NCBI GenBank assembly: GCA_014800785.1
Contig: JAAVFK010000021.1
Coordinates: 12,931-55,459, forward strand
Reading direction: 5' to 3'
Source of the DNA: Bacteroidales bacterium
Lineage (GTDB): Bacteria; Bacteroidota; Bacteroidia; Bacteroidales; Muribaculaceae
Length of the DNA stretch: 42,529 nt
Below are positions 13,751 through 42,529 of the stretch, in pieces. The stretch's first letter is position 1. Each line of letters opens with the position of its first letter. A program made the position numbers and the translations under genes. Below the pieces are notes generated by a model that was not told the origin of the DNA, did no database searches, and was given only the letters and a program-made list of their open reading frames with translations.

Positions 13751-15091
13751 ATGGGATTTACACAAACAATAAAGAATATCTGGAGCATCGAGGATCTTCG
13801 CAAGCGCATCGGTATCACCCTGCTGCTTGTGATCATCTATCGCTTCGGATGCTACGTGGTTCTTCCGGGCATCAACCCGGATGACCTCATGGCGCTTAAG
13901 AACTTCACCTCCGACGGTCTGATGCAGCTGCTCGACATGTTCTCGGGAGGCGCGTTCTCTCAGGCCTCGATCTTCGCTCTCGGCATCATGCCCTACATCA
14001 CGGCTTCGATCGTGATCCAGCTTCTGGGTATGGTCCTCCCCGCATTCCAGAAAATGCAGCGCGAGGGCGAATCGGGCCGCATGAAACTCAACCAGTACAC
14101 GCGTTACCTGACAGTAATCATCCTTCTGCTCCAGGGACCCGCTTACCTCATGAACCTTAAATATCAGGTTCAGGCTGCAGGCGGCAACGTGGATATGTCG
14201 TTCTGGATGCTCGCCTTCATGACGATCGTCCTCGCGGCCGGTTCGATGTTCATCATGTGGCTTGGCGAGCGCATTGACCAGAAAGGCGTGGGCAACGGTA
14301 TCTCGTTCATCATCTTGATCGGTATCATCGCCCGTCTTCCCGAAGCATTCTTCCAGGAATTCACCAGCAGACTGTACAACTCGGCAGGTGGCGGACTGGT
14401 GCTTTTCCTCGTGGAAATCATCATCCTTCTCGCCGTGATCGCCGGTGCGGTCCTTCTCGTCCAGGGTACCCGCAAGGTGCCCGTGCAGTACGCGAAGCGT
14501 ATCGTCGGCAACAAGCAGTATGGCGGTGTGCGTCAGTATATCCCGCTTAAAGTGAATGCCGCAGGCGTAATGCCCATCATTTTCGCCCAGGCAATCATGT
14601 TTATCCCCATCACACTCGTAGGCTTCTCGACCAAGACCACAGGTTTCTTCGGCGCTCTTACCGACCTGTACGGTTTCTGGTACAACCTGGTTTACTTCCT
14701 CATGATCGTTGCCTTCACCTACTTCTACACCGCCATCACCGTGCGTCCCGCGCAGATGGCTGAAGACATGAAGCGCAACAACGGATTTATCCCCGGTATC
14801 AAGCCCGGCAAGCCGACCGTCGAGTATCTTGACTCGATCATGTCGCGCATAACGCTCCCCGGATCTATCTTCCTCGGAATCGTTGCCATCCTGCCGGCGA
14901 TCGCCCATGTGTGTGGTCTGAACCGTAACTTCGCCTCGTTCTTCGGCGGCACTTCGCTTCTGATTCTCGTAGGCGTAATTCTCGACACGCTCCGCATCAT
15001 CGAGGGCCACCTCGTAATGCGTCGTTATGATGGTCTGATGAAAGACGGAAGCCGGATTCAGGGTCGCACCACCGGCAACAACGCTTTCTGA
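13751..15091 (+). CDS. secY: Preprotein translocase subunit SecY
   Basis: Multi-TM; FTQTIKNIWSIEDLRKRIGITLLLVIIYRFGCYVVLPGI; NNGFIPGIKPGKPT. Confidence 0.97.
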   Translation: MGFTQTIKNIWSIEDLRKRIGITLLLVIIYRFGCYVVLPGINPDDLMALKNFTSDGLMQLLDMFSGGAFSQASIFALGIMPYITASIVIQLLGMVLPAFQKMQREGESGRMKLNQYTRYLTVIILLLQGPAYLMNLKYQVQAAGGNVDMSFWMLAFMTIVLAAGSMFIMWLGERIDQKGVGNGISFIILIGIIARLPEAFFQEFTSRLYNSAGGGLVLFLVEIIILLAVIAGAVLLVQGTRKVPVQYAKRIVGNKQYGGVRQYIPLKVNAAGVMPIIFAQAIMFIPITLVGFSTKTTGFFGALTDLYGFWYNLVYFLMIVAFTYFYTAITVRPAQMAEDMKRNNGFIPGIKPGKPTVEYLDSIMSRITLPGSIFLGIVAILPAIAHVCGLNRNFASFFGGTSLLILVGVILDTLRIIEGHLVMRRYDGLMKDGSRIQGRTTGNNAF

Positions 15092-28260: not shown

Positions 28261-29799
28261 TTATAGGTTTTCGTATTCAATCTTTTCGTGATCTCCGGGA
28301 GAAAGTTTAATGTCTAATTTCTCCGGTATATTATTGGAGGTAATTTTGACTCTTTTCGTTTTATGCTTTACGTACGAAAATTCAAGAATATCTCCTTTTT
28401 GCAGATCGCTTACATAGTATTTGCCATCGATGTCTGAAGCCATCCCATATATTTGCTTCCCATCACGATATATCAACAGGGTACAACCGATTGCCAGGTC
28501 CCGTTTGCCTTTCCATTTACAATAAACTGTGATGGTGCGTGTAGTCGAAAATGTAATGGTGTGACGAGTTAGACGTTTCACCATCTCTTTTGCGGCTTCG
28601 TCGCCCATTTCTGCGGCTTTTCTATACCATATCTCAGCAGCATACATATCTTTCTCCGTACCGGTTCCATTATAGTAACAGGAGGCAAGATTGCTAAAGA
28701 TAGATACCGAGGCATCCGGTTGGCTTGCGGCCAACTCGAAATTTTTGAAGGCCTTGGTGTAGTCTTTAGATGTACCCTTACCATCGTAATAACAAACTCC
28801 GACCATATTAATAGCTTCTGTATTCCCAACTTTGGCAGCGGAATCAAACCAGCGGAAGGCGTTGGCATAATCTTTAATATTGTAGTATTTCCATGCAATA
28901 TAAAGTCGACATTCTCCTAATTGCTTTTTGAGCAATTTCTCTTCAGAGGAAGATATGTGTCCGGTGAGGGCAAGCGATAAATAGTGCTCACCCTTTATAG
29001 GATCCACCAGACCGCTTTTTTCACCGTTTATGTACACGGGGCGGCTATAGACCTCACCTAACTTCGCGTATCCCGTCATATCACCCATCTTTCCGCGACG
29101 TCTCAGCCACTTCCGATAGGCTTCCTGATTGTCGGTGCTTTCGTAGAAATCCGATATCTTCTTAGCCGCGTCAATATTGCCGAGTTTGGCGTCGGCATAG
29201 GTCTTCGCGTCTAGTCCCGAGGGAACGATGTCCAGCACGAGGCGAAAGCCGGGAGATAGTATAGGACGCGAGGATTTGTCTATTCCGTTCAGCTTGCCTT
29301 CATTTGACGCCCATTGAGTCTCTTCGTCCGTGGCGAGACGATAGACCTTGCCCGTAATCCGGTTGAGAGCAGGGATGAACAGGCCGTTTACATTCCATGT
29401 AATGGTCGTAGACGGCATTGTGAAACCGGTGACCGCCTCCCATTCATCCAGCGTGATGTGATGGCCGATATAGAAATCGTCCATCTCGATGTCCGGATCG
29501 GGAGTGTATGAGAGTGTGCCTGTAAATCCCTTGGCTGCCGTTTCAGGCGACGTATATGTTCCCCCCTTGACGAACACCATCTCCTGTTCAAGGCTCCGGA
29601 TGATTTTGTCGCGTGTTGCCTGAGACATCCCCTTGTTCTCCGATACTGACTCCCTATGCCGCCGATCTTTCTTTGTGGCGGCATTATTGTGGATTGGAAT
29701 CGGTGGTGCTGGTGGTGGTGGCGTGATTTTTCCCTGGCCGAAGACGGCTGAGGCTGCGAATGCGAGTAGAAGGGTAATTATCGTTCGGGTCAGTCTCAT
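28261..29799 (-). CDS. Secreted protein: degenerate FGE/SUMF1-like N-terminus, Sel1-like repeats, C-terminal CarboxypepD_reg-like domain
   Basis: Signal peptide ...AVFGQGKITPPPPAPP; MVFVKGGTY...FYIGHHITLDEWEAVTGF...YRLATDEETQWASNEG...PGFRLVLD; Sel1-like NTEAINMVGVCYYDGKGTSKDYTKAFKNFELAA and SNLASCYYNGTGTEKDMYAAEIWYRKAAEMGDEAAKEM; C-terminal SDIDGKYYVSDLQKGDILEFSYV. Confidence 0.8.
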   Translation of the reverse strand: MRLTRTIITLLLAFAASAVFGQGKITPPPPAPPIPIHNNAATKKDRRHRESVSENKGMSQATRDKIIRSLEQEMVFVKGGTYTSPETAAKGFTGTLSYTPDPDIEMDDFYIGHHITLDEWEAVTGFTMPSTTITWNVNGLFIPALNRITGKVYRLATDEETQWASNEGKLNGIDKSSRPILSPGFRLVLDIVPSGLDAKTYADAKLGNIDAAKKISDFYESTDNQEAYRKWLRRRGKMGDMTGYAKLGEVYSRPVYINGEKSGLVDPIKGEHYLSLALTGHISSSEEKLLKKQLGECRLYIAWKYYNIKDYANAFRWFDSAAKVGNTEAINMVGVCYYDGKGTSKDYTKAFKNFELAASQPDASVSIFSNLASCYYNGTGTEKDMYAAEIWYRKAAEMGDEAAKEMVKRLTRHTITFSTTRTITVYCKWKGKRDLAIGCTLLIYRDGKQIYGMASDIDGKYYVSDLQKGDILEFSYVKHKTKRVKITSNNIPEKLDIKLSPGDHEKIEYENL

Positions 29800-31103
29800 T
29801 GTTTGCCGTTGATCAGGTCCTGAATATTCTGTTGGTCGCTGTTGACCGTTCCCCCTTCCTCGCTGGCGGGCTTCGGTAGGGTCGGCTTGGGCTCCTCGGG
29901 CGCCGGCTTTGAGGGGGCGGACTCGGTCTGAGTCGAGGTCGAGGTCGAGGTTGCTGAAGAGGGGGTGGGGCGGACGGGACCCGCATCGGTGACCTCGGGT
30001 TGCGCAGTCTCAGGGGCGGCAGTCGGCGCCGGCGTTATTGTCGGCTTTGCGGAGGTCGGCTTCTCCTCCTTATAGTCCTGGTGCACAGACTCGGGGAAAT
30101 CGGCCGGAACCTTTTTATCGTCAGACGAACAGGAATTGATGAGGAAGTTGATGCCCACCAGAAGGAGGGCGACAGCAAAGGCGGCGATCAGGAACCGGAC
30201 CACCATCGGACGCATACTCCGCTTCGGCGACGCCACGGGCTTCGCCTTATTGTCATCCTCAACAATAGCGGTGAACTTCTCCTCTCTCTTCACGGCGATC
30301 GGGTCGGTCACCTCCAGGATATGGACAATGAAGGCGGTGTGGTTGTCGCGGTTGTCTTCGGTGACAGATCTCAGGATCTCGACCTTATTCTCGTCGGTGC
30401 CCCCCTGTTCGGAGAAGATATTGCGAAGCGACGAACCATCTTCCATCTCATCCTGCTCCAGCATGCCGTCGGAACAAAGATAGAAATAATCGCCCCCCTT
30501 GATATCCGACGTCCGGTAGACATCCGCCTTCGGACGGCGCTCCATGTAGGGCTGCATCGCGCGGGTGATCACATTCTTCTGTTTTGAATGGCGCGCCTCC
30601 TCGCGGGTCAGTTCGCCGATCTTGATCAGGTCGTTGACCAGGGAATGGTCGGAGGTCTCGTGAAGAATCCGGGTATCCTCTCCCGTCTTGCCGGGGCGGA
30701 TATGATAGACGCGGCTGTCGCCGATATGGGCTATGAAAGCCCCTTCGTCATAGAGCTTGAGGAAGGCCATTGTCGTGCCCATCTTCTTCTCCGCGCCACT
30801 GTCTTTTGTGTCCAGAGCCTCGAACGCCGCCTTGAGGGCGTTGTCGAAATCCGCTTCGGTGAACTTGCCCTCGGTGTCATGGCCGTCGGCAAGTATCGAG
30901 CTGCTCATTGCCTCGCAGACCGTCGCGCTCGCCACCTCCCCAGCGTCATGGCCTCCCATTCCGTCGCAGAGAATGAAGAGTCGGTCGGAGTCAGTCTGTT
31001 TCCCGAACGCGGGAAACAGACTGTCCTCCTGATGGGGGTTGCCCAGCGAGTCCTTTCTTTGGCCGAACTCCTGTATGCTGTAAACTTTGAGTCTGTATTT
31101 CAT
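29796..31103 (-). CDS. Membrane-anchored PP2C-family Ser/Thr phosphatase with Pro/Thr-rich C-terminal tail
   Basis: LFILCDGMGGHDAGEVASATV, AHIGDSRVYHIRPG, YLCSDGMLEQDEM, EDNRDNHTAFIVHI; TM MVVRFLIAAFAVALLLVGINFLI; start MKYRLKV at 31103; overlaps the next gene by ATGA. Confidence 0.92.
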   Translation of the reverse strand: MKYRLKVYSIQEFGQRKDSLGNPHQEDSLFPAFGKQTDSDRLFILCDGMGGHDAGEVASATVCEAMSSSILADGHDTEGKFTEADFDNALKAAFEALDTKDSGAEKKMGTTMAFLKLYDEGAFIAHIGDSRVYHIRPGKTGEDTRILHETSDHSLVNDLIKIGELTREEARHSKQKNVITRAMQPYMERRPKADVYRTSDIKGGDYFYLCSDGMLEQDEMEDGSSLRNIFSEQGGTDENKVEILRSVTEDNRDNHTAFIVHILEVTDPIAVKREEKFTAIVEDDNKAKPVASPKRSMRPMVVRFLIAAFAVALLLVGINFLINSCSSDDKKVPADFPESVHQDYKEEKPTSAKPTITPAPTAAPETAQPEVTDAGPVRPTPSSATSTSTSTQTESAPSKPAPEEPKPTLPKPASEEGGTVNSDQQNIQDLINGKQ

Positions 31104-31155
31104 AATATTATCCGAGAAGAGGGAGATGTGTCGTTGATCGGATCCTTTGATCGTT

Positions 31156-31191
31156 GGTTTGAAACATGCCGAAGGCATGTCCCTACATTGG
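31156..31191. repeat. REP-like dispersed hairpin repeat, copy 1
   Basis: ggtttgaaACATGCCgaaGGCATGTccctacattgg; identical to copy 2. Confidence 0.8.
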
Positions 31192-31235
31192 ATTGCGGAT
31201 TGGATGCGGTTGGCACTTCCTCTGTTAAGTGAACG

Positions 31236-31823
31236 TTAATAGTCGGTTGCTTCGTCGTCGGGGATTTCGAAAATCAGTGTCGCGTCCGGAAGTTTTATGA
31301 TGTCGCCGTGGTTGAGGACGATCACGTCGCCGAAGAGCAGCTGCTCGTTGCCGAGCCAGGTCTTGTTGACTTTCTCCTTGAAGAGCGACAGATAGTGGAC
31401 GAATCCCTTCGCTGGCACTTTTTTCACCTCGACCACAATGTGCTCGCGGCTCATGGCGCGCTGTTCGCCGGTGTCGATCTGAAAATCGGCTCCCGATTTG
31501 GTCGCCTTGCGCCCGATCACGTTGCGTCCCGGCTTCAGGCGGAACGTGGTTCCTGCGCCGGAGACTTTCAGCCGGCCTATGGTGAAATTGAGCTGACCGA
31601 GGTCGGTCGCCTCGTCGTTGTGGCCGTTGCCGCCGGGATATTCCGTGTCGGGATCGTCTCCCGTGTTTACGGTCTTGTCCACGCGTTTGAACTGAGTGAA
31701 CGGATACTTGTGCTTGCAGATCGGGCAGGTGACGTTTTTCGACTCGATGCCCGGTTGGTTCTTGACCGAAAGGATGGCCCCGTCAAAAGGGCATTTTATC
31801 TGAATTATATCATCCATTACCAT
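31236..31823 (-). CDS. FHA-domain protein with N-terminal Cys-containing ribbon-like segment
   Basis: IIQIKCPFDGAILSVKNQPGIESKNVTCPICKHKYPF; FHA GRNVIGRKATKSGADFQIDTGEQRAMSREHIVVEVKK; start M at 31823 or 31817. Confidence 0.85.
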   Translation of the reverse strand: MVMDDIIQIKCPFDGAILSVKNQPGIESKNVTCPICKHKYPFTQFKRVDKTVNTGDDPDTEYPGGNGHNDEATDLGQLNFTIGRLKVSGAGTTFRLKPGRNVIGRKATKSGADFQIDTGEQRAMSREHIVVEVKKVPAKGFVHYLSLFKEKVNKTWLGNEQLLFGDVIVLNHGDIIKLPDATLIFEIPDDEATDY

Positions 31824-31863
31824 TATTCTTTTACGGTTTGATATGACGGTCTGATAATTTGAG

Positions 31864-31899
31864 GGTTTGAAACATGCCGAAGGCATGTCCCTACATTGG
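31864..31899. repeat. REP-like dispersed hairpin repeat, copy 2
   Basis: ggtttgaaACATGCCgaaGGCATGTccctacattgg, 36/36 identical to copy 1. Confidence 0.8.
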
Positions 31900-31913
31900 T
31901 TTGACGACTGGCT

Positions 31914-32660
31914 TTACCATTTCATTACCGCCATATTGTTGTCGAAATTACCCCACATGACCGGGTGCTGTTTGCCTCCCGAGACGTTGGTCACTTCACG
32001 ATGAACGAAGTCGTAGAGCTCGCGGGCCGTGATGATCCGGTTGCGGTTTGCGTCGGCATTTCCTCCGAGTCCTTTGGTGAGGTAGGTGGTGAAGAATCCG
32101 TTCTTCATATCGGTGCGTTCGATCGAGTTCTCGTTGTTGCGCGATGAGAGGAACAGCATCACGTTGGCATTCTTCGCCGCCGTCAGCGCTCCCTGGGCCG
32201 AAGTTTCGTCCACACGCATTCCACCCGAGCGGCAGGCGTCGACGAACATCATCTTGTTCCGACACCGGCTCTTGGCCATGGCCCGGCGGACCTCGTCATA
32301 TCCGATCTTGCCGTCGTAAGCGCAGAATCCTCCGGGATACCCGTGGCCGCTGAAGAAGAAGACCACCATGTCGTTCTCCTTCGCCATCCCGAATACCTTG
32401 TCGATCGCCTTGACGATCCGTTTCTTCGTCGCCTTCTCGTTGAGAAGCAGGGAGTAGTCGACCGACGTATTCTTGGAGTAGAGGTCGGCCACTGTGCGCG
32501 CGTCGTTGACAGTCAGCCGCAGGTTGCTGATCTGACCCGGGAATCCGGAGTAGTCTCCGATACCCACCGAAACCAGATAGACACGTGCGTCGGCCGCGAA
32601 CGCGACGGTGAGCAGGATCGCCGCAAGCAGGACTCTTAATAACTTACCCTTCATAACCAA
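31914..32660 (-). CDS. Caspase-like (peptidase C14) protein with signal peptide
   Basis: Signal peptide LLRVLLAAILLTVAFAADA; YLVSVGIGDYSGFPG; FFFSGHGYPGGF (His); MMFVDACRSGGMR (Cys). Confidence 0.9.
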   Translation of the reverse strand: MVMKGKLLRVLLAAILLTVAFAADARVYLVSVGIGDYSGFPGQISNLRLTVNDARTVADLYSKNTSVDYSLLLNEKATKKRIVKAIDKVFGMAKENDMVVFFFSGHGYPGGFCAYDGKIGYDEVRRAMAKSRCRNKMMFVDACRSGGMRVDETSAQGALTAAKNANVMLFLSSRNNENSIERTDMKNGFFTTYLTKGLGGNADANRNRIITARELYDFVHREVTNVSGGKQHPVMWGNFDNNMAVMKW

Positions 32661-32671
32661 CCCTTAACAAC

Positions 32672-33664
32672 TTAACCTTCATAGATGTCGGAGGTGAGGT
32701 CTGCGGAATTGTTCGAGGCGAGCGGGTCGGCACCGGGGGTGGAGAAACCTCCGAGGTCGTTCACGCCGAGCCCCTGGCCGTGGATGTCGGCATACTCGTT
32801 CTCATCGAGTCGGCCGTCGTTGTTGGTGTCGACACCCATATAGTCGAACTCCATGTCTCCGTCCACGTCTATCAGGATCACCTCCTGGCCGTCTACCATC
32901 ATTCCCCCCATGTTCATGCCCGTCTCCGGGTCATGGGCGACACCGAGGATCTCTATCTCGGCCTGAGGGGTTCCGTCAACAACCATCGCCTCCTGCGGCT
33001 GAATCTCGCTCTGGGGCTGAACATCGGTTACGGTCAGGTCATTCTGATCATTGTTGTGGGTGACCGAGACGATGTCTATGTCGTCTTCGGCTTGTGTCGG
33101 GTGAGGGGTTGAGGCGGAGGCGGTGCGGGTGGCGTGAGCGGCCACGTTGCTGTCCGTTTGGTCGATATGGTTCCAGCTGAAGTGGTCGCCGAACTCGGCG
33201 CGTTCCTCGGCCGTCATCGCTTTCCACTCGTCGGCCGTGTATGTGCCGTAGACCTGGCCGTGCCATTCGAAACATCCTCCCGGGCCGACTTCCTCGCGCG
33301 CCGCGGCGAAAGCCTCGCCGAAAGACATATCATCATTTACGGAGGTGGCGACCTTTATCTGATCGTCCACCCATTCCGGGTTGGAGAGCTCCTCACGGTG
33401 ATTGTCGGGTCCTGCGGCCGAGGCCTCGTCGGTCATACCCATGAGGAAAGTGGCCACGCCGCCGATCAGCAGGCCCGAGCCGGCGCCTGCCGCCGCGCGC
33501 TTCAATATCCCCTTCTTCCCTTTTTTCTCTTTCGGCGCGCTGTCGGAGCGGGCGTCGCTGTCTGTGCGGATTTCCTGCGACTCGTCAGCAAAACAGGTGT
33601 CCTCGTCGCGGTTCATCTCTTCGTTGTCGAAGCGTGTGGCTTCGTCGTCATATTGTGTGGTCAT
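32672..33664 (-). CDS. Membrane protein with Gly/Ala hydrophobic segment and C-terminal EF-hand-like acidic motif
   Basis: RAAAGAGSGLLIGGVATFLMGM; VGPGGCFEWHGQVYGTYTADEWKAMTAEERAEF; LIDVDGDMEFDYMGVDTNNDGRLDENEYADI; starts 11 bp upstream of the caspase gene. Confidence 0.7.
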   Translation of the reverse strand: MTTQYDDEATRFDNEEMNRDEDTCFADESQEIRTDSDARSDSAPKEKKGKKGILKRAAAGAGSGLLIGGVATFLMGMTDEASAAGPDNHREELSNPEWVDDQIKVATSVNDDMSFGEAFAAAREEVGPGGCFEWHGQVYGTYTADEWKAMTAEERAEFGDHFSWNHIDQTDSNVAAHATRTASASTPHPTQAEDDIDIVSVTHNNDQNDLTVTDVQPQSEIQPQEAMVVDGTPQAEIEILGVAHDPETGMNMGGMMVDGQEVILIDVDGDMEFDYMGVDTNNDGRLDENEYADIHGQGLGVNDLGGFSTPGADPLASNNSADLTSDIYEG

Positions 33665-33671
33665 GATCTTT

Positions 33672-33866
33672 AGAGAGTGTTTGAATTTAAATCAAATTTA
33701 ATGTTTAGAGAGGTTTAGAAATTTTTGATTTCATCACAAAGGATCTTTTGGACGCCTTTCCAAAGATTTCATCGGTCGCGATGCCCGCATCGCTCCCTCT
33801 TCAACTTTGAAAATTCATCCCAAAATCTCTCTTTGTGCTAAAATCATTTAAATTCAAACACTCTCT
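33672..33866. repeat. Perfect 21-bp inverted repeats flanking 153 bp (candidate invertible segment or MITE-like element)
   Basis: agagagtgtttgaatttaaat (33672-33692) / atttaaattcaaacactctct (33846-33866), 21/21; internal hairpin GCGATGCccGCATCGC (33778-33793). Confidence 0.85.
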
Positions 33867-33878
33867 TAGTGTTTGGGG

Positions 33879-34211
33879 TTATTTTTTCTTTTCAGGCAGG
33901 CGGACCCGGGTGTTCTCCTTAATTTCGAGGATCACGTCCACGAGTTCCGAGCGGAGCGCCATGCAGATTGAGTCCTGGCGCTTGTTCATCGTCTCGAGTG
34001 TCTCGGTCGAGACACCCGCGATTCGGGCGTTTCGCTTTGCCTCCTGAGTCTTGATCTCCTTTTCGAGATTGGCGCGTCTCGTCTCCAGACCCTGAAGTTT
34101 CACTGTCGAGGCGATCGAATCGGCCTGTGTCGCCGGTGATGCGGCCGACACGCCGATGGTGCCGGAGAGGGCGATGATCGCGGCGGCCGCTGTTGCTGAA
34201 ATGGTCTTCAT
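33879..34211 (-). CDS. Small secreted coiled-coil protein, unknown function
   Basis: Signal peptide MKTISATAAAAIIALSGTIGVSAA; charged helical LETRRANLEKEIKTQEAKRNARIAG. Confidence 0.6.
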   Translation of the reverse strand: MKTISATAAAAIIALSGTIGVSAASPATQADSIASTVKLQGLETRRANLEKEIKTQEAKRNARIAGVSTETLETMNKRQDSICMALRSELVDVILEIKENTRVRLPEKKK

Positions 34212-34230
34212 CTTATTGGTTTTCTATCGG

Positions 34231-34268
34231 GACCGAGTTTCGGTTTGGTCTTGATTCCGAAACCGGTC
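34231..34268. other. Inverted repeat between the LRR gene and the coiled-coil gene
   Basis: GACCGaGTTTCGG-tttggtcttgatt-CCGAAACCGGTC; no T-tract. Confidence 0.5.
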
Positions 34269-34269
34269 T

Positions 34270-35319
34270 TCAATATTTGTCAAAATTCTTCACTCCCTTG
34301 ATATTCTTTGCGGATGGGAGTTCCGCGGCGCTGATCGGATAGGGGAGAGCTCCGGGGTGGGCGCTGTATTCGCCGGGTGCCGTCGCGAGTGACTTGACGT
34401 AGGCCCCTTTCGCGTTCGCAGGCACGATTATCTGTGCTTTCGGGTTGGCGAGCTGGAAGAAAAACTTCCCTTCGTCACCGAGGTATCCCGTCAGGATCGG
34501 TTTTTCGTTGCGCAGCACTATCGTTGCGAGACCCTTCATCCTTGACGTTTCGCGGAACGATACCGATTCGAGCGATGCCGGCAGGTCTATCGAAGTGACC
34601 GACACGCAGTCTGTCAGCGCCCCCGGTGCAATTTTAACGGTGCCCTCCCGTACGATGATCTTTCCTCCGCGGGCTCTCGGGCAGATGAGCAGCGACTCTC
34701 CGTTTTTGGAGTAGAGCATACCGTTGTCTGAAGAGAATGTGCCGTTGTTGGGGTCTACTGTCAGACGTTCGAGGTGTTGAAGCTGCTTGATGCCCTGGAT
34801 TTTTTCTATCTTGGCCGGGACGTTTATCGCGGCCAGACGGTCGCTCCATCTGAACATCGTCAGATCCATAACTTTCCAGTCGCTGCCGACGGTCACGTCT
34901 GCAATCTCGGGACATTTGAAGAACACGCCCTGTCCGAAGACCACGGGGTTGCCGGGAAAGACCACGCTCCTGAGCGAGTCACAGTCTTCGAAAGCGAAGT
35001 CACCGATCTCTTCCACTCCGGCCGGAATCACGATTCCCTTGAGGCGGTCGGCGTTGGCGAAAGCCTTGCGGCCGATAGCCTTGACGTTATAGACCACGTC
35101 ATTGTGTTTGACCTTGGCCGGGATCTCGACGGTCCCCGAGACTGTCGGCACCTTCTTGTCGGCAATACTGCCGTCGTAGGTCACCGCTACGGTCCGCGCC
35201 GTCTTGTTGGTGATTTCGAAGCAGAGCCGCTGTCCGTTGACCGTCGCCGTGAAGTCATGGGCTTGCGAGGCGAGGGATCCGAGCAGCAGAACTGCAGTCA
35301 GAATTTTTTTCAGTTTCAT
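34270..35319 (-). CDS. Secreted BspA-like leucine-rich-repeat (LRR_5) protein
   Basis: Signal peptide; VKAIGRKAFANADRLKGIVIPAGVEEIGDFAFEDCDSLRSVVFPG. Confidence 0.85.
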   Translation of the reverse strand: MKLKKILTAVLLLGSLASQAHDFTATVNGQRLCFEITNKTARTVAVTYDGSIADKKVPTVSGTVEIPAKVKHNDVVYNVKAIGRKAFANADRLKGIVIPAGVEEIGDFAFEDCDSLRSVVFPGNPVVFGQGVFFKCPEIADVTVGSDWKVMDLTMFRWSDRLAAINVPAKIEKIQGIKQLQHLERLTVDPNNGTFSSDNGMLYSKNGESLLICPRARGGKIIVREGTVKIAPGALTDCVSVTSIDLPASLESVSFRETSRMKGLATIVLRNEKPILTGYLGDEGKFFFQLANPKAQIIVPANAKGAYVKSLATAPGEYSAHPGALPYPISAAELPSAKNIKGVKNFDKY

Positions 35320-35332
35320 ATCTGTCGGAGGG

Positions 35333-35908
35333 TCAGGCGTTGTAGGTGTCCACGTCGGCGTCGTTGACGTAATCGGGGAGATCGTTCTGAGCGAACTGCG
35401 GGTTGAAACCGACGGCGTTGGCGAAGGGTTGCATGGCTATGTTCTGGTCCTGAACCTGGGTGACTTCGTTTTCCTGAATTTGTTGGTCGCCGTTCATGTC
35501 GACCATCATCAGGTCGGCTTTGCCGTCGAGGTCGATGTCCAGGAAGCCCACCTCCTGACCCTCGACGTTGACCACGGCGATGTCCATCTGCGATCCGTCG
35601 GGGTTGGTAACGCGGTCGTAGCTGAGCACTTCCACCTCGGGCTCAGGGTCGGGCTGAACCGGATCCACAGGTTTCGGCTCCGGGTTCACGGGCGGGACCG
35701 GCTCGGGCTGGACGTCCTGGGGTGTGGGGGCCGGAGCGGGCTGCTGTGCGGCGGGTTGGGCCACCACTTCGGGGACTATTTCGTCGGAGGCTTCGGCGGA
35801 CTGGGGGGTGATGGCCGCGCCAGCCACCACACCGACTGCGGCACCTGCGGCGGTGCTTGCGCCGGTAGCCATATTCTTCTTCATCTCGTCTTTGCTTTCC
35901 TGTTTCAT
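35333..35908 (-). CDS. Pro-rich membrane protein with EF-hand-like motif; paralogous to 32672-33664
   Basis: TGASTAAGAAVGVVAGAAI; PAPAPTPQDVQPEPVPPVNPEPKPVDPVQPDPEPEVEV; VNVEGQEVGFLDIDLDGKADLMMVDMNGDQQIQENE. Confidence 0.7.
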   Translation of the reverse strand: MKQESKDEMKKNMATGASTAAGAAVGVVAGAAITPQSAEASDEIVPEVVAQPAAQQPAPAPTPQDVQPEPVPPVNPEPKPVDPVQPDPEPEVEVLSYDRVTNPDGSQMDIAVVNVEGQEVGFLDIDLDGKADLMMVDMNGDQQIQENEVTQVQDQNIAMQPFANAVGFNPQFAQNDLPDYVNDADVDTYNA

Positions 35909-35940
35909 AGCTTATAGTGTTTTAAGTTGTTTTGATGATG

Positions 35941-35972
35941 CAAAAGTACCTCCGAACCTACGCCCCGCCAAG
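35941..35972 (-). promoter_or_regulatory. Candidate promoter for the 35908-33879 transcription unit
   Basis: Minus strand CTTG-N20-TACTTTTG (perfect TAnnTTTG). Confidence 0.6.
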
Positions 35973-36100
35973 CATTTTGCCGCATCCTGTACGAAATACC
36001 CCGATTACTCCACGAAATTGCGCCGCGCCCCCCTCGCCGGCGCCCCCCGCCTCGCAAATCAACCCAACATTTGTCGTCGGTATCCGAAGCGTTTTTTGCC

Positions 36101-37237
36101 TCAGTATCTGATTATTCCGCACCATTTAGGGAAACTATCTGAATAAATTTTACAGTTTTTGGGGATGTGAACAACTTTCAATGATTTACAATCAGAGAAG
36201 GCCCCGCTATCTATTTCCTCAATAGATCTGGGTATAGCGATTGATTCTAATGCGTCGCAACCTGTGAAGGCAAATTTACCAATGCTTATTATAGAAGAAG
36301 GTAAAACCACTTTGTCTAGAGATGTACAGTATGCAAAGGCATTTTCTTCAATTGAAGTCACGGAATTCGGAATATCAATGCGATTCAATTCATGCACACC
36401 GTAAAAAGTTTTTTCCCCTATAACCTTTACTGAATTCGGAATTTGATATATGTATAGACCTAGGGGAGCGAATCCTACCAAAGTCCCGTTAACAACTAAG
36501 CATCTGTTGTCCGGAGTGGCAAATTTCCCGTAGAATGCGTTCAAATTACTACAGTAATCAAATGCTCCGGCTTCAATATATTGGACTGACATTGGTATAT
36601 TAATATATGGAAGAGAAGTGCAAGACGTAAATGCGTCCTTCTTAATTACCGTTACGGATTCCGGTATTACAATAGATTTTAGAGATTCACAGAATCCAAA
36701 AGTGCCATCGAGGATGCTAATAGAGTTAGGAATAGTCACTGTGGTTAATGATTTACAACCCCAAAAGGCACCTCTGCCAATTGTTGTGACTGATCTTGGA
36801 ATGTTCACAGTGGCTAATGCACAATGCGAAAAGGCTGAGTTCCCAATTGTAGTAACTGAGCTTGGAATATTCACAGAGTTTAATGAAACACACCATGCAA
36901 AGGCCTCTTTCCCAATTGTAGTAACTGAGTTAGGTATTTCTACTGACCTTAAAAAGTCAAAGCTCCTAAATGCATAATCTCCTATTGTCTTTACAGAATT
37001 TGGAATTTTGACCTCCGTGATGGTTTTGGGGTATTGACCCTCTTTTATAATGGTAGGACGATTATCTTGGCCACCGCCACCTTGATGTCGCTGAGGTTTA
37101 GTGGGCTTTTTTCTCGGCTTTGTAGATTGCTGAGTTGGCTTCTTAGCGGGGCGCGTGACCTTGCCCTGGCCGAAAGAGTCGGCTGTGGCGAGGGCTATGA
37201 TGGCGATGAGACAGAGGGTCAGGAGTCGGTGTTTCAT
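36101..37237 (-). CDS. Secreted BspA-like leucine-rich-repeat protein
   Basis: MKHRLLTLCLIAIIALATADSFGQGKVTRPAKK...; repeated IPNSVTTIGKEAFAWCVSLNSVNIPSSVTTIGNSAFSHC; start MKHRLL at 37237. Confidence 0.9.
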   Translation of the reverse strand: MKHRLLTLCLIAIIALATADSFGQGKVTRPAKKPTQQSTKPRKKPTKPQRHQGGGGQDNRPTIIKEGQYPKTITEVKIPNSVKTIGDYAFRSFDFLRSVEIPNSVTTIGKEAFAWCVSLNSVNIPSSVTTIGNSAFSHCALATVNIPRSVTTIGRGAFWGCKSLTTVTIPNSISILDGTFGFCESLKSIVIPESVTVIKKDAFTSCTSLPYINIPMSVQYIEAGAFDYCSNLNAFYGKFATPDNRCLVVNGTLVGFAPLGLYIYQIPNSVKVIGEKTFYGVHELNRIDIPNSVTSIEENAFAYCTSLDKVVLPSSIISIGKFAFTGCDALESIAIPRSIEEIDSGAFSDCKSLKVVHIPKNCKIYSDSFPKWCGIIRY

Positions 37238-37250
37238 TTGTCGGGTTATT
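37052..37250. repeat. 5' cassette direct repeat, copy A (LRR gene)
   Basis: Aligned by eye with 38121-38319: about 13 mismatches in 199 nt, no gaps; spacing 1069 bp. Confidence 0.85.
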
Positions 37251-37289
37251 CGGTTAGGAGTGTAATTGTATAAATAGTCATCGGCTCGG

Positions 37290-37319
37290 CAATGTAGGGA
37301 CATCGCTTCGCGATGTTTC
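37290..37319. repeat. REP-like dispersed hairpin repeat, diverged copy 3, opposite orientation
   Basis: Reverse complement gaaACATCGCgaaGCGATGTccctacattg; compensatory stem changes relative to copies 1 and 2. Confidence 0.75.
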
Positions 37320-37367
37320 CCAGGCACCATGTTTCTGTCGATGCGGATTCATCGAAAACAGCGAACC

Positions 37368-38306
37368 TTAGAGCGCCAGGCGTAAGCCAACGTACGTAAG
37401 GCAGTCACGCGGCTTAAGGCAGCCACGATTAGCCACACGGCAGTAAAACGCGCCCTGGCTCTGGCTACCACCACGTACAACACGCATAGCGGTGTTAGGA
37501 GACGATTTATACCTATTGCTCCAGTTATCGGAACACCATTCCATGACATTACCCGTCATATCAAATATGCCTAACTCATTACCGAGTTTCTGTGCTACCG
37601 GATGTGTTCTGCCACCGCTGTTTTCATCATACCATGCCACTCTGTCAATATCGTCACTACCACTATATTTATAGCCCCGAGACCTATTGCCGCCGCGAGC
37701 CGCGTATTCCCATTCCGCCTCAGTCGGCAGACGAAAATTTCGTCCCGTCAGACGGTTCAACTTCTCTACAAATTCATGACAGTCATACTTTGAAACATTT
37801 TCAACTGGAAGCGTCTCTCCTCGAAGATTCGACGGATTGGAACCCATAACCGCTACCCACAATTGTTGCGTCACTTCGGTTTTGCCAATATAGAATGTCG
37901 AAACAGATTCGGTGTGTACCGGTTTTTCATCAGAGTCGCCGGTATTTGATCCCATGCTGTAAGTTCCGCGATCTACCCTTACCATATCGAAACTGACACC
38001 ATTAACCGTGAATGTCTCTACCGGTGCACTCAAAGCTCGGGGAGCCGGTGGATTAGTGTTGGTAGGACGATTATCTTGGCCACCCGATGGGTTGAGGTTG
38101 ATCGTCGTGTTGGCTGTGTTGGTAGGATGACTATCTTGGCCACCGCCACCTTGATGTCGCTGAGGTTTAGTGGGCTTTTTTTTCGGCTTTGTAGATTGCT
38201 GAGTTGGTTTCTTAGCGGGGCGCGTCACCCTGCCCTGGCCGAAGGTGTCGGCCGTGGCGAGAGCTATGATGGCGATGAGGCAGATGGTCAGGAGTCGGTG
38301 TTTCAT
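37368..38306 (-). CDS. Secreted FGE/SUMF1-like (C-type-lectin fold) protein
   Basis: MKHRLLTICLIAIIALATADTFGQGRVTRPAKK; YSMGSNTGDSDEKPVHTESVSTFYIGKTEVTQQLWVAVMG; FRLPTEAEWEYAARGG; GIFDMTGNVMEWCSDNW; VVRGGSQSQGAFYCRVANRG. Confidence 0.92.
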   Translation of the reverse strand: MKHRLLTICLIAIIALATADTFGQGRVTRPAKKPTQQSTKPKKKPTKPQRHQGGGGQDSHPTNTANTTINLNPSGGQDNRPTNTNPPAPRALSAPVETFTVNGVSFDMVRVDRGTYSMGSNTGDSDEKPVHTESVSTFYIGKTEVTQQLWVAVMGSNPSNLRGETLPVENVSKYDCHEFVEKLNRLTGRNFRLPTEAEWEYAARGGNRSRGYKYSGSDDIDRVAWYDENSGGRTHPVAQKLGNELGIFDMTGNVMEWCSDNWSNRYKSSPNTAMRVVRGGSQSQGAFYCRVANRGCLKPRDCLTYVGLRLAL

Positions 38307-38319
38307 TTATCGGGTTATT
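38121..38319. repeat. 5' cassette direct repeat, copy B (FGE gene)
   Basis: See 37052-37250. Confidence 0.85.
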
Positions 38320-38346
38320 TGTCGGGTTATTTGTCGGGTTATTTGG
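38311..38346. repeat. 12-bp tandem repeat x3 spanning the kinase stop and FGE-gene leader
   Basis: cgggttatttgt cgggttatttgt cgggttatttgg. Confidence 0.8.
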
Positions 38347-39871
38347 ATTTGGCGGGTTTGCCGTCGTGCCATTGGCCTCTGGACTCGTCCGGCTGGCTAT
38401 TTTTGAAGTAGCCTTCGAAATAGGCATTGCCTGCTTTGCTGATGTAGATGCCTTTGTAGTATTTGTTATCCTTGAACTCTCCTTCAAAGACGTCGCCGTT
38501 GGAAACGATATATTTTGCTTGACCTTCAAAGTTGCCATTCTTAAACTCACCGTAATAGATCCCTCCCTTATATGGACCATCTATAATTTTCGCTTCACCA
38601 TAATCAGGTATGTATGTATCTCCGACTTCAAAAGCCGTTCCGGTAAACACTACTTTTCCTAATGCTGTGTCAAACGTTATATCTTTAACATTTGTTGCGG
38701 CATTATCCATATCGTCGTTACTCTCCTGCACACGAGAAGTGTCGGTTAGTGCTATTGCAGAGTCGTCTTCGGATGTAGCGTTTGCGGAGTGATTGCCCAA
38801 CAGAGCCCATAGGATGATAGGCAGGGCTACTATCAGTATTCCCGCTCCCCAGGCAATGAAATTTTTGTATTTGCTTTTGGGCGGTTCCTTTTTAATCCAG
38901 TCGGGATTATTAGGCTTTCGGGGTTTCGGGGTCGGTTTCGGGGCTGCCGGCTTGACTTCGGTGGCGTCGCTGTCGGTGCGGGTCTTTTCGTTGCGCGTGT
39001 AGGTTCGGGTCGCCATTCTGAGATCCGCGAGGAAATCCGCTATGGTCTCGTGGCGATTCTTGCGGCCCGAGGACATCGCTTTGGAGATCGGGCCGATCAG
39101 TTTGGCGGGGATAGTTGCGGGGAAGGTCAGCTCCTCTTCAACGAGGCGAGGCGCCTGTGGTGGCGTCACACCCGAAAGGATATAATAGAGCGTAGCTGCG
39201 AGGGAATAGCAGTCAGTCTGGGGAGAGAACTCCTTGACACCACCATCATTATATTGCTCCATCGGGGCGAAGCCGTGAGAGATGCCGGTCGGTGTTGTCG
39301 AAGTTTGGTGACCCTCCGAATCATACTGTTTCGAGAGACCGAAATCGATCAGGATGGCTGCGCCATCCTTGCGGCGCACCATAATGTTGGCCGGTTTCAC
39401 GTCCAGATGATTGATCCTGCGGTCGTGAACATAGATGAGGGCCTCTCCGACCTTCTCGATATAGTCCAGCGCCTGCTTCTCGGGGAGTGGACCGCCGTTC
39501 TTGACCATAGCCGAAAGCGACTCTCCCTCGATATATTCCATTACATAATAGGCCGTATTGTTCTCCTCGAACGCCGAGTAGATACGGATGATTCCCGGAT
39601 GGTCGAACTTGGCGATGTTTCGCGCCTCCTTGAGGAACTTGGCCTTCAGACGGTTGACGAACTCGGCGGTGCTCTGCGTTCCGAGGCGCACACGACTGGT
39701 GGTCGCGTCGCGGTCACAATAGTCCTTGGGGAAGAACTCCTTGATCGCGACGAGACGGCCGAGATTAATGTCGAGGGCGAGATAGGTTATGCCGAAACCT
39801 CCCTGGCCGAGAACCTTTTCTATGCGGTAGGAGCCGTGCTGGAGCAGGACTCCCGGTTGAAGAATCTGCAT
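38339..39871 (-). CDS. Membrane Hanks-type Ser/Thr protein kinase with C-terminal MORN-like repeats
   Basis: LGQGGFGITYLALD, VAIKEFFPKDYC, INHLDVKPANIMV, ILIDFGLSKQY; TM FIAWGAGILIVALPIILWALLG; GGIYYGEFKNGNFEGQAKYIVSNGDVFEGEFKDNKYYKGIY. Confidence 0.94.
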   Translation of the reverse strand: MQILQPGVLLQHGSYRIEKVLGQGGFGITYLALDINLGRLVAIKEFFPKDYCDRDATTSRVRLGTQSTAEFVNRLKAKFLKEARNIAKFDHPGIIRIYSAFEENNTAYYVMEYIEGESLSAMVKNGGPLPEKQALDYIEKVGEALIYVHDRRINHLDVKPANIMVRRKDGAAILIDFGLSKQYDSEGHQTSTTPTGISHGFAPMEQYNDGGVKEFSPQTDCYSLAATLYYILSGVTPPQAPRLVEEELTFPATIPAKLIGPISKAMSSGRKNRHETIADFLADLRMATRTYTRNEKTRTDSDATEVKPAAPKPTPKPRKPNNPDWIKKEPPKSKYKNFIAWGAGILIVALPIILWALLGNHSANATSEDDSAIALTDTSRVQESNDDMDNAATNVKDITFDTALGKVVFTGTAFEVGDTYIPDYGEAKIIDGPYKGGIYYGEFKNGNFEGQAKYIVSNGDVFEGEFKDNKYYKGIYISKAGNAYFEGYFKNSQPDESRGQWHDGKPAKSK

Positions 39872-39875
39872 TTTC

Positions 39876-40679
39876 TTATTTCTCTATGAACTGGCACTTG
39901 CAATAGGGGCAGTGCATCGAATATTGCTTCTTGAGGAGATTGTAGCTGAGGTTGCCGAGGAACTTGTTACACTCCGGATTGGGGCATACATAATCGTCGG
40001 TCAGCTTCTCGGTAGCCGCCTTGCGGTCTTCATAGCTCGTGTCCTTCTTCCGGTAGTTCACCAGATAGAGCCCGAAGCTGATTGCGGCAACCGGAATGGT
40101 GATGTAGAGGGTGTTGACGGCCACGAACGACGCGAGAATCGGGCTGGCCACACCGGAAAACGAGCCCACCATAATCGGGAGCATACGCTTCTTGCCGATC
40201 TCCTGCTGACGGATGGCGATACGGTCCATCTCAGTCTCATAATTGTTCCACACCTGCTTGAGGTGGCGGATATTGAACTGCTTTGTGGCCGCTGATCCCC
40301 CGGCGGCGCTACCGCCGGAGACGGCGGTGGTGAGAAGCTTCCGGGCCGTGTCGATCACCAGGGCGAGGTTGATGTTGAAATGATCCTTGCCGAGCTCGAC
40401 CGAATTCGAGCCCGTGACCTTTTTGGAGACGATCTCCGAACCGTTAACATAGGTGACGTTCTCAGGCTTCATATTGGTCAGCACCATGTTGCCAAGATTG
40501 TCGACCGTAATTTTAGCGTGGGCCTTGCGTTCGGTCGGCTTGCACCGGCTGACGGAGGCCGGGACGCACCCCGGCGCACCGATAGCCGCTGTCTTCCCGG
40601 CACCGTCGATCGCGACAAGGAGGCGACCCGACCCCGGTTCCTTGCCGATAAGTATGGTTTTTCCTTTCAGATTGTTCAT
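39876..40679 (-). CDS. FHA-like protein with two TM helices and C-terminal zinc-ribbon-like CPxxxC...CPYCxC
   Basis: VSRCKPTERKAHAKITVDNLGNMVLTNMKPENVTYVNGSEI; TM region MLPIMVGSFSGVASPILASFVAVNTLYITIPVAAISFGLYLV; YVCPNPECNKFLGNLSYNLLKKQYSMHCPYCKCQFIEK. Confidence 0.8.
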   Translation of the reverse strand: MNNLKGKTILIGKEPGSGRLLVAIDGAGKTAAIGAPGCVPASVSRCKPTERKAHAKITVDNLGNMVLTNMKPENVTYVNGSEIVSKKVTGSNSVELGKDHFNINLALVIDTARKLLTTAVSGGSAAGGSAATKQFNIRHLKQVWNNYETEMDRIAIRQQEIGKKRMLPIMVGSFSGVASPILASFVAVNTLYITIPVAAISFGLYLVNYRKKDTSYEDRKAATEKLTDDYVCPNPECNKFLGNLSYNLLKKQYSMHCPYCKCQFIEK

Positions 40680-40733
40680 GTGTGTAATGTTTGAAAGCGG
40701 ACCTGATATTATAGCTATTCAGCGGTGGCGCTA

Positions 40734-40773
40734 AGCAGCGACCTAAGCTGGTCTGAGCAGCGACCTAAGCCGG
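40734..40773. repeat. 18-bp direct repeats, 22-bp period, in the LytTR/FHA intercistronic gap
   Basis: agcagcgacctaagctgg (40734-40751) and agcagcgacctaagccgg (40756-40773). Confidence 0.75.
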
Positions 40774-41133
40774 ATTGGAAACATACAGGTCCCGAAGTTT
40801 CTTCAGCGCATCTTTCGAGACGCTGAGGTTGTATTCGAAATTCTCGCCGTCGCTGAGCACGAGTTTCTGGCGAAGGATCGCTATCTGGTAGACATAGTTC
40901 AGATTCACGATATGTCGTTTGCCGATTCGGGCGAAAGTTCCTGCCGAGTCCTTGAGACTCGCGGCAAGTATCTCCTGCATCTGCGCGAGATTCATGCAGA
41001 CGGTCGCCTTCAGCTTGTTGTTGAGGATTATATGCGTATAATTCCCATCCGATTCAAAGTAGACGATCTTAGTGATGTCCACTCTGAAGAACTCGTCGCG
41101 CGAGTTCAGATACAGATATTTGCTCCGGTTCAT
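40765..41133 (-). CDS. Stand-alone LytTR-domain transcriptional regulator (no REC domain)
   Basis: FFRVDITKIVYFESDGNYTHIILNNKLKATVCMNLAQMQEIL...FARIGKRHIVNLNYVYQIA; start MNRSKYLYL at 41133 (ORF start 41277 overlaps the upstream gene). Confidence 0.85.
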   Translation of the reverse strand: MNRSKYLYLNSRDEFFRVDITKIVYFESDGNYTHIILNNKLKATVCMNLAQMQEILAASLKDSAGTFARIGKRHIVNLNYVYQIAILRQKLVLSDGENFEYNLSVSKDALKKLRDLYVSNPA

Positions 41134-41177
41134 GATGATGCGTTTTGAGGTGATCGACTGCACGAAAGTAACCGATG

Positions 41178-42529
41178 CTAATCGTTTGCTTTCGATAATG
41201 TGCGTCTCGTCAATATATACTTGGCCAATATACAGGCTATAAACGAAAGGAACGCTATGGCCAATAGATTGATCCAACTCCCGAATCTATCGTAGAGAAC
41301 AATGAAATTGAACCCTTGAATAGGTTTGCCCTCAAGATCGTAATATGAAGAGTCGGTACTTCCCGGTTCGGTGACTTTTATTATATTGTCTGAAAGCATC
41401 TGTTTATAGGTGAAAGAAAAGGGAAGTACGACGTTGCCCGAGGTGTCATATATAGCATAGAGATTTTTGCCTCCTTCGGCCACATTGGTTTCCTCAGCGT
41501 GTATACGGTAGAGTTTCTTGTGAATCTTCGTTATATCGCCATAGTCGATGTGCGGTATTTCCTCAACAAGCCGGTCTTTCAGGAACAGCCGGCCTTTGAA
41601 TCGGTAGATGGAATCCGGGACAGCGACGAGACCAAAGTCGTTCAATTGGGCAATGATGTACGTCGGGTTCATTATGGCGGTGTCACCGATTGCAAATCGC
41701 TCATTCGGATTGGATTTGTTGTAGTGAGGTGGAACAACCCATTTTCCTGTGCGGGTGTACTCGATTCCCCATGTCTGCGTGTCCCATGGACTATCAGCTA
41801 CACGTCGGCCGAACTGAAACCTATCTCTTACCGAGGTATTGTCCCAATAAACCACATCATTCCTACATGACTTACTGATTACAGGTTCAATAGGGTCAAA
41901 GAATAGATATGCGATAGTGATGACGGCTGTGATCACAGCATATAGGATCCAGCTATGTTCATTATATATCCTCCTGAAAAACTCCAAGATTCCTTTGTTG
42001 CTATCCCATATCGAGAGGTTGCTTAATCCCGACTCTTTCCAGACAATATTTTTCAGCTTTTCTACATTACCGGTCATAAAGGCCGCTTCCCCATCCTCGA
42101 ATGTTGATGCGTCGAAAAGAAGGGCATCGGATCGATATATCTTCAGTTGGACACCATCATATTCCCAAGGCAAAGATGGATTGCTTTCGGCTGAGATTCC
42201 ACAGGCTGCAATTTCATCCTTCAGATTCCGGAATTTTTCGGGCGTATATTGGTAATACTCCTTCACTGCGAATTGCTCGCCCTTCGTTTGATAGATTACC
42301 TTCAGATTTTCGGACGTCGCGGTGATCTTGACCCAGGTATATCTATAAGGGTTCGAAGTATCTGATATTACCAGGAGTTCAATTTTGTCGACTCCGGATC
42401 CAAGATCGGGTTCTGTCTCATGGGACTTACCCTTACCTCCCCACTTCCAATCGCTGTTTATGTCGGAATTGATGTCGCTTGTGTCCTCTACGCCTACAAT
42501 CTCGACATCGGTATCCTCTTCCGAGTCGG
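41178..42529 (-). CDS. Membrane protein of unknown function, N-terminus beyond the window edge
   Basis: Frame upstream of the listed GTG start (42266) is open to the edge: ...DSEEDTDVEIVGVEDTSDINSDINSDWKWGGKGKSHETEPDLGSGVDKIELLVISDTSNPYRYTWVKITATSENLKVIYQTKGEQFA-; two TM segments (ILYAVITAVITIAYLFF; WINLLAIAFLSFIACILAKYIL). Confidence 0.75.
   Translation of the reverse strand, partial: DSEEDTDVEIVGVEDTSDINSDINSDWKWGGKGKSHETEPDLGSGVDKIELLVISDTSNPYRYTWVKITATSENLKVIYQTKGEQFAVKEYYQYTPEKFRNLKDEIAACGISAESNPSLPWEYDGVQLKIYRSDALLFDASTFEDGEAAFMTGNVEKLKNIVWKESGLSNLSIWDSNKGILEFFRRIYNEHSWILYAVITAVITIAYLFFDPIEPVISKSCRNDVVYWDNTSVRDRFQFGRRVADSPWDTQTWGIEYTRTGKWVVPPHYNKSNPNERFAIGDTAIMNPTYIIAQLNDFGLVAVPDSIYRFKGRLFLKDRLVEEIPHIDYGDITKIHKKLYRIHAEETNVAEGGKNLYAIYDTSGNVVLPFSFTYKQMLSDNIIKVTEPGSTDSSYYDLEGKPIQGFNFIVLYDRFGSWINLLAIAFLSFIACILAKYILTRRTLSKAND

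Follow-up and report, generated by a model that had tools for sequence, protein, structure and literature searches.

The locus and its inverted repeat

The window considered here (the whole stretch of DNA that was analysed, 42,529 nucleotides from a Muribaculaceae genome of 48 contigs and 2.53 Mb, hereafter G000) carries on its minus strand a gene for a 110-residue protein (33879..34211) and, downstream of it, a gene for a 330-residue protein with EF-hand-like loops (32672..33664), which gave no Pfam hit. Between them lies an element found 13 nt from the stop of the former and 8 nt from the start of the latter. A repeat search of the region recovered two arms (33672-33692 and 33846-33866) that are complementary at 21/21 positions and separated by 153 nt, i.e. 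the perfect 21-bp inverted repeat of the original prediction, whose other details, namely a 7-nt gap between arm and the ATG at 33664, an internal palindrome GCGATGCC-CGCATCGC at 33778-33793 and a -7-like box TAAATTTG on the minus strand at 33693-33700, likewise agree with the sequence. The arm motif has no further match in the whole window (0.08 expected).

The prediction erred in reporting no obvious target-site duplication: TTA is found on both sides (33670-33672 and 33866-33868), and the outermost base of each 21-bp arm is part of it. Other copies have TAA/TTA duplications. With the ends re-read, the element measures 193 bp (33673..33865, no strand assigned) and is bounded by 20-bp terminal inverted repeats (TIRs) that match at 20/20 positions, GAGAGTGTTTGAATTTAAAT on the left (33673..33692, plus strand) and the same 20 bp inverted on the right (33846..33865, minus strand). 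The -7-like box is subterminal, and no transposase gene is found within the 193 bp.

Copies, target duplications and element-free sites

The check for copies in the same genome yielded about 30 full or partial members of the same family (family A) elsewhere in G000, a repetition far beyond chance. They lie in unrelated flanks, most are 90-100% identical, they have an asymmetric interior in common, and TTA/TTA or TAA/TAA borders most of them. Among elements that carry the conserved core described below and have ends starting with GA, 64/83 have the same 3 bp duplicated at both borders, mostly TAA/TTA and AAT/ATT, a count based on a scripted boundary choice that favoured duplications and with which the manual reading of the G000 copies agrees. 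In four related species (L301, L302, L303 and L306) the orthologous pair, the 110-residue gene followed by the EF-hand-like gene, is syntenic and element-free, with flanks too diverged to define a base-exact empty site. These observations, along with the existence of similar autonomous IS5-family elements, bear out the MITE reading of the repeat, an assignment that can be taken as practically certain.

The other reading originally offered, a phase-variation switch in which the 153-bp segment enclosed by the arms is inverted by a recombinase so that expression of the downstream operon alternates between on and off, would account for a perfect inverted repeat upstream of a gene and for the TAAATTTG box placed inside it. 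Invertible promoters of Bacteroidales are single-locus switches with a recombinase and, likewise, have inverted repeats upstream of genes; the window element is instead a dispersed transposable element, with some 30 relatives at unrelated sites bordered by target duplications, and orthologous operons exist without it. No recombinase is present among the 27 window proteins scanned with Pfam, and no -33 element supports the TAAATTTG box; a scan for sigma-70-type promoters, which does not cover those of Bacteroidales, gave no match. A switch at this site is, thus, extremely improbable. Two other roles were also considered and set aside: that of a general outward promoter, as TAAATTTG was not seen in the other families inspected, and that of an intrinsic terminator, the sole hit using the right arm on the plus strand and occurring at the rate expected by chance.

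Several G000 contigs start or stop within family copies, as a repeat that interrupts assembly would lead one to expect. The ends of contigs C1, C3, C5, C9, C19, C25 and C39 fall inside these MITEs and, therefore, the copy number in the draft is probably underestimated. Insertions of about 45-65 bp adjoin the core in otherwise intact MITEs at two loci (L017, about 1550-1635, and L100, upstream of 1500). As for the upstream neighbour, the 110-residue protein has a longer C-terminal part (..SPxLINQFNNL..) in L301, L302, L303 and L306, which is missing from the window's copy right beside the insertion.

The central hairpin

Pairing in the element extends beyond its arms. The full minus strand folds at -76 kcal/mol, compared with -41 for shuffled versions (z = -8.1), and the 126-nt interior deprived of its TIRs still folds at -51.3 kcal/mol on the minus strand (z = -7.8) and at -28.7 on the plus strand. 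At its centre lies a conserved, strand-specific RNA-like hairpin that the original prediction overlooked (33756..33815, minus strand; 60 nt, G000:C21:46686-46745, minus), which is a full-length match to the covariance model built for it (R1). It encloses a 36-nt core, TGAAGAGGGAGCGATGCGGGCATCGCGACCGATGAA (33768..33803, minus), common to MITEs with different TIRs, and the apical stem-loop GCGATG-CGGG-CATCGC (33778..33793, minus), which is the internal palindrome mentioned above. Read along the minus strand, the hairpin consists of an outer stem, the stretch YGAAGARGGA, a 6-bp apical stem closed by a CGGG loop, and the stretch GACYGAUGAR. In the window copy, the internal part contains three tandem G.A/A.G motifs, spaced by one A-U pair and by two further pairs, of which one is a covarying R-Y and the other a nearly constant G-C. 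Across copies two or three such motifs are found, and the loop is mostly CGGG; in divergent copies the third, outer motif may lie 2-3 pairs further out or be absent.

The evidence for this structure comes from the way in which copies differ. In an alignment of 41 distinct sequences, 91.5% of the cells pair, as opposed to 72.9% in shuffles, both sides have changed in 15/20 pairs, and slid versions pair at only 39-49%; an unguided RNAalifold run arrived at this structure as well, down to the isolated pairs that separate the G.A motifs. The invariance of the G.A motifs is partly by construction, because the pattern with which the species genomes were scanned fixed those letters; the loop was left free in the same scan and is still CGGG in more than 90% at each position. 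No letters were fixed when the covariance model was run, even though the sequences from the pattern scan had served to train it, and GANGGA/GACNGA is strictly kept in 22/28 of its divergent matches, where the apical stems are wholly different (GCATAG/CTATGC, GCTTAG/CTAAGT, GCATGG/CCATGC, GCAACC/CGTTGC). In one further case (L322:2211-2270) the outer stem and the third G.A motif are kept, and the apex is different and longer (CAGCAACC-TTTC-GGTTGGTG).

Some resemblances to known motifs were considered and dropped. The one between CUGAUGA/GAA and hammerhead sequences does not hold, the motif being a two-way internal loop and not a three-way junction; those to CRISPR repeats and to REP sequences were also abandoned. 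As to the latter, RAYT (IS200-like) mobilisation of a REP/REPIN-like element, for which the TIRs would be a secondary feature, would fit the GGAG tetranucleotide that precedes the apical hairpin in many copies, but the fourth base of this tetranucleotide is either G or A (GGAG or GGAA) rather than that of a conserved GTAG/GGAG, and the long TIRs with 3-bp duplications are as in IS5, so that hardly any likelihood is left to such an origin.

One core under many ends

The interior of these elements, usually 160-205 bp long when they bear the core, is more conserved than their ends. Besides family A, G000 contains core-bearing families ending in GAGTATGTTTACTTTTAAA (L019), GAAGTCATCTTGACTTTTT (L036) and GAAACTGTTTAAATTTATG (L030, L038). 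When 119 ends were clustered at 14/18 identity, 32 groups resulted; some of the singletons come from misplaced boundaries, so that a fair estimate is some 10-15 real end types. Families A and B of G000 have the interior in common and differ in their ends, a comparison that favours exchange or rapid replacement of the latter; the core may have come under different ends through end drift following the transposases, or through recombination. A number of core-bearing elements (L086, L096 and L264, and also L106, L328 and L342) have a common 5' end, AAGACCCC, without a clear matching 3' end, and are possibly a second, non-TIR carrier of the same hairpin.

The ends of several MITE groups resemble those of autonomous IS5-family elements. 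A search with PF13586 for a parent in G000 gave no match, and a search with PF01609 across the genus led to IS5 elements, among them three autonomous ones of 0.89-0.96 kb, all encoding NF033580 IS5-family transposases with DUF4096 and DDE_Tnp_1 domains: L130 (893 bp, ends GAGTATGTTTGAATTTAAA), L121 (ends GAAGTTGTTTAAACT) and L109 (ends GAGTGTGTTTACTTTTAA). The ends of L130 differ from the family A TIR at 2/19 positions and are close to those of a core-bearing group ending in GAGTATGTTTGAATTTAAC; those of L121 and L109 are close to other groups. The exact autonomous parent of the family A TIR was not found among the IS5 elements recovered, L130 being the nearest. Together with the 3-bp duplications, the ends point to transposition in trans by IS5 transposases.

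MITEs usually derive from IS elements, and the similarity of ends raises the question of whether the core could have been left behind passively from a parental IS, as part of its untranslated region, and be shared through common descent only. However, five IS loci with IS5-type ends gave no match to the hairpin model, and none lies in L130, L121 or L109; the core, therefore, is not simply an untranslated region of these elements. Furthermore, entire stems have been replaced with compensation while the G.A motifs were kept, which neutral decay does not produce. A passive remnant is, on balance, quite improbable.

Distribution of the hairpin

G000 contains 40 occurrences of the 36-nt core when up to two mismatches are allowed. 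The covariance model is positive in 59/81 genomes of the genus, with 48 matches in G000 and up to 59 in another genome, and the pattern scan of species genomes retrieved at least 109 stretches, mostly from Muribaculaceae metagenome assemblies, with Paramuribaculum intestinale DSM 100749 as an isolate among the matches listed; overall, the hairpin is present in several hundred copies across the family. In a draw covering the whole order, 5/295 genomes were positive: G000, representatives of two further genera in its family, and two genomes from a single different family, with weak matches that are again flanked by terminal repeats. No match came from viral contigs, plasmids or phages, so that nothing points to a phage or plasmid as vehicle. 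Among the 4227 covariance models of Rfam, searched at permissive thresholds, the best match reached E = 0.16 and 20 bits, against a cut-off of 63. A literature search on Muribaculaceae transposons or a shared MITE core, in which few subscription journals were covered and an earlier description may have been missed, returned nothing relevant.

Strand asymmetry: RNA or DNA

Whether the fold is maintained as RNA or as DNA can be judged from the difference between the strands. On the hairpin strand, G.U cells outnumber A.C cells by 52 to 9 in the core and proximal stem, and the TIR-free interior is more stable on this strand in all of 46/46 non-redundant elements, with a median advantage of 17.6 kcal/mol with RNA parameters and of 6.8 kcal/mol with DNA parameters. 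Strand-specific selection on an RNA fold is, in our judgement, highly likely.

The core could, conversely, act as DNA, in the form of a cruciform, a single-stranded hairpin or a protein-binding palindrome that aids transposition or replication of the element. Its presence in mobile elements of many end types would be in keeping with such a role, and DNA parameters, too, give the hairpin strand the greater stability; but the preference for G.U over A.C, and the asymmetry of a fold for which a double-stranded cruciform or protein site should prefer neither strand, make this explanation unlikely, single-stranded DNA acting on one strand being a possible form of it. It is from covariation and strand asymmetry that we infer a role as RNA, and the hairpin appears to be a structured RNA, not described before, that IS5-type MITEs have spread through Muribaculaceae.

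Proposed mechanism and relation to known elements

According to the mechanism proposed here, the TIRs would be recognised in trans by IS5-family transposases, with TWA (or AAT/ATT) sites as the targets of insertion; the inserted element, mostly intergenic, would be transcribed along with its neighbours, and the minus-strand transcript would fold into a long hairpin whose two or three tandem G.A motifs would probably be sheared pairs. A host RNA-binding protein or RNase might then recognise the hairpin, and such recognition would maintain selection on the RNA fold across all families, while the ends of the DNA would diverge according to which IS5 transposase mobilises them. Taken jointly, a non-autonomous IS5-type MITE, a central hairpin conserved as a one-strand RNA and the mechanism just outlined form the explanation that we consider likely, with good confidence. 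What the hairpin would do is more tentative. Our best guess is that it acts in cis to stabilise the host transcript or to process it, and we would give this clearly less than an even chance. In the window, both flanking genes have the structured minus strand as their coding strand. Among 125 insertions, with genes called by a simple longest-ORF rule, the 3'-side neighbour is co-oriented with the hairpin in 79 (p = 0.004, without correction for relatedness) and the 5'-side neighbour in 62, an orientation bias that is modest and weaker than a strong cis-mRNA role would lead one to expect. The broader proposal, that we are dealing with a novel RNA motif, functional and strand-specific, with two tandem G.A/A.G motifs two base pairs apart, one of these covarying, and a mobile module carried by several IS5-type systems, its ends changed repeatedly, that a host factor reads in hundreds of gut Muribaculaceae transcripts, falls not far short of an even chance.

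Comparable elements are found in other bacteria. Like BrickBuilt, MITEPgRS/464, MITE239 and MITE700, the IS5-family MITEs of Porphyromonas gingivalis (PMC4596501), the present elements belong to Bacteroidales, are dispersed, and have predicted stem-loops and TIRs like those of IS5-family elements; BrickBuilt, as the window element, has no transposase remnant. In the P. gingivalis MITEs, however, the TIRs are similar and the remainder is not (PMC4596501), whereas here one structured core, with pairs covarying across species, is found under different TIRs. The Correia/NEMIS and ERIC elements are likewise intergenic MITEs of about 100-200 bp with transcripts forming long hairpins (reviewed in PMC10969869 and PMC2229807), but they have other hosts and ends, and in Muribaculaceae the fold of the interior has been kept irrespective of the TIR. 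Precedents for a role of MITE RNA are the Correia transcripts, cut by RNase III at the TIRs (PMC10969869, PMC2229807), and QMITE1 and QMITE2 of Coxiella burnetii, from which small RNAs derive (PMC5896051). QMITE2, at 150-190 bp and with a palindromic repeat, resembles the Muribaculaceae element and differs from it in its GTAG REP and its 7-11 nt duplications; the passages of that study covered here describe no covarying RNA motif across different end types (PMC5896051).

The interiors of MITEs are generally seen as decayed leftovers, and Muribaculaceae are dominant bacteria of the mouse gut. An interior fold kept by compensatory one-strand changes under many unrelated ends, in hundreds of copies in this family, makes it testable whether an RNA function carried by non-autonomous elements explains their spread. 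It also yields a new candidate RNA family, with a covariance model for annotation, and serves as a warning that a perfect inverted repeat ahead of a Bacteroidales gene can mark a MITE and not a phase-variable switch.

Other features of the window

The element lies within a minus-strand region (28261-42266) that encodes a Ser/Thr kinase, a PP2C phosphatase, an FHA protein, a caspase-like peptidase, the EF-hand-like protein, Sel1 and BspA-type LRR proteins. Against the PADLOC models, the kinase matches those for PD-T4-6/mad6 and the caspase the one for caspases, and the cluster is a signalling or possible defence island. Elsewhere in the window, a gene for a sulfatase-fold, EptA-type phosphoethanolamine transferase (9205-10911, plus strand) lies downstream of the gene for ribosomal protein L5 (8169-8717) and upstream of secY (13751-15091), apparently within the ribosomal protein gene cluster, which is an unusual placement.
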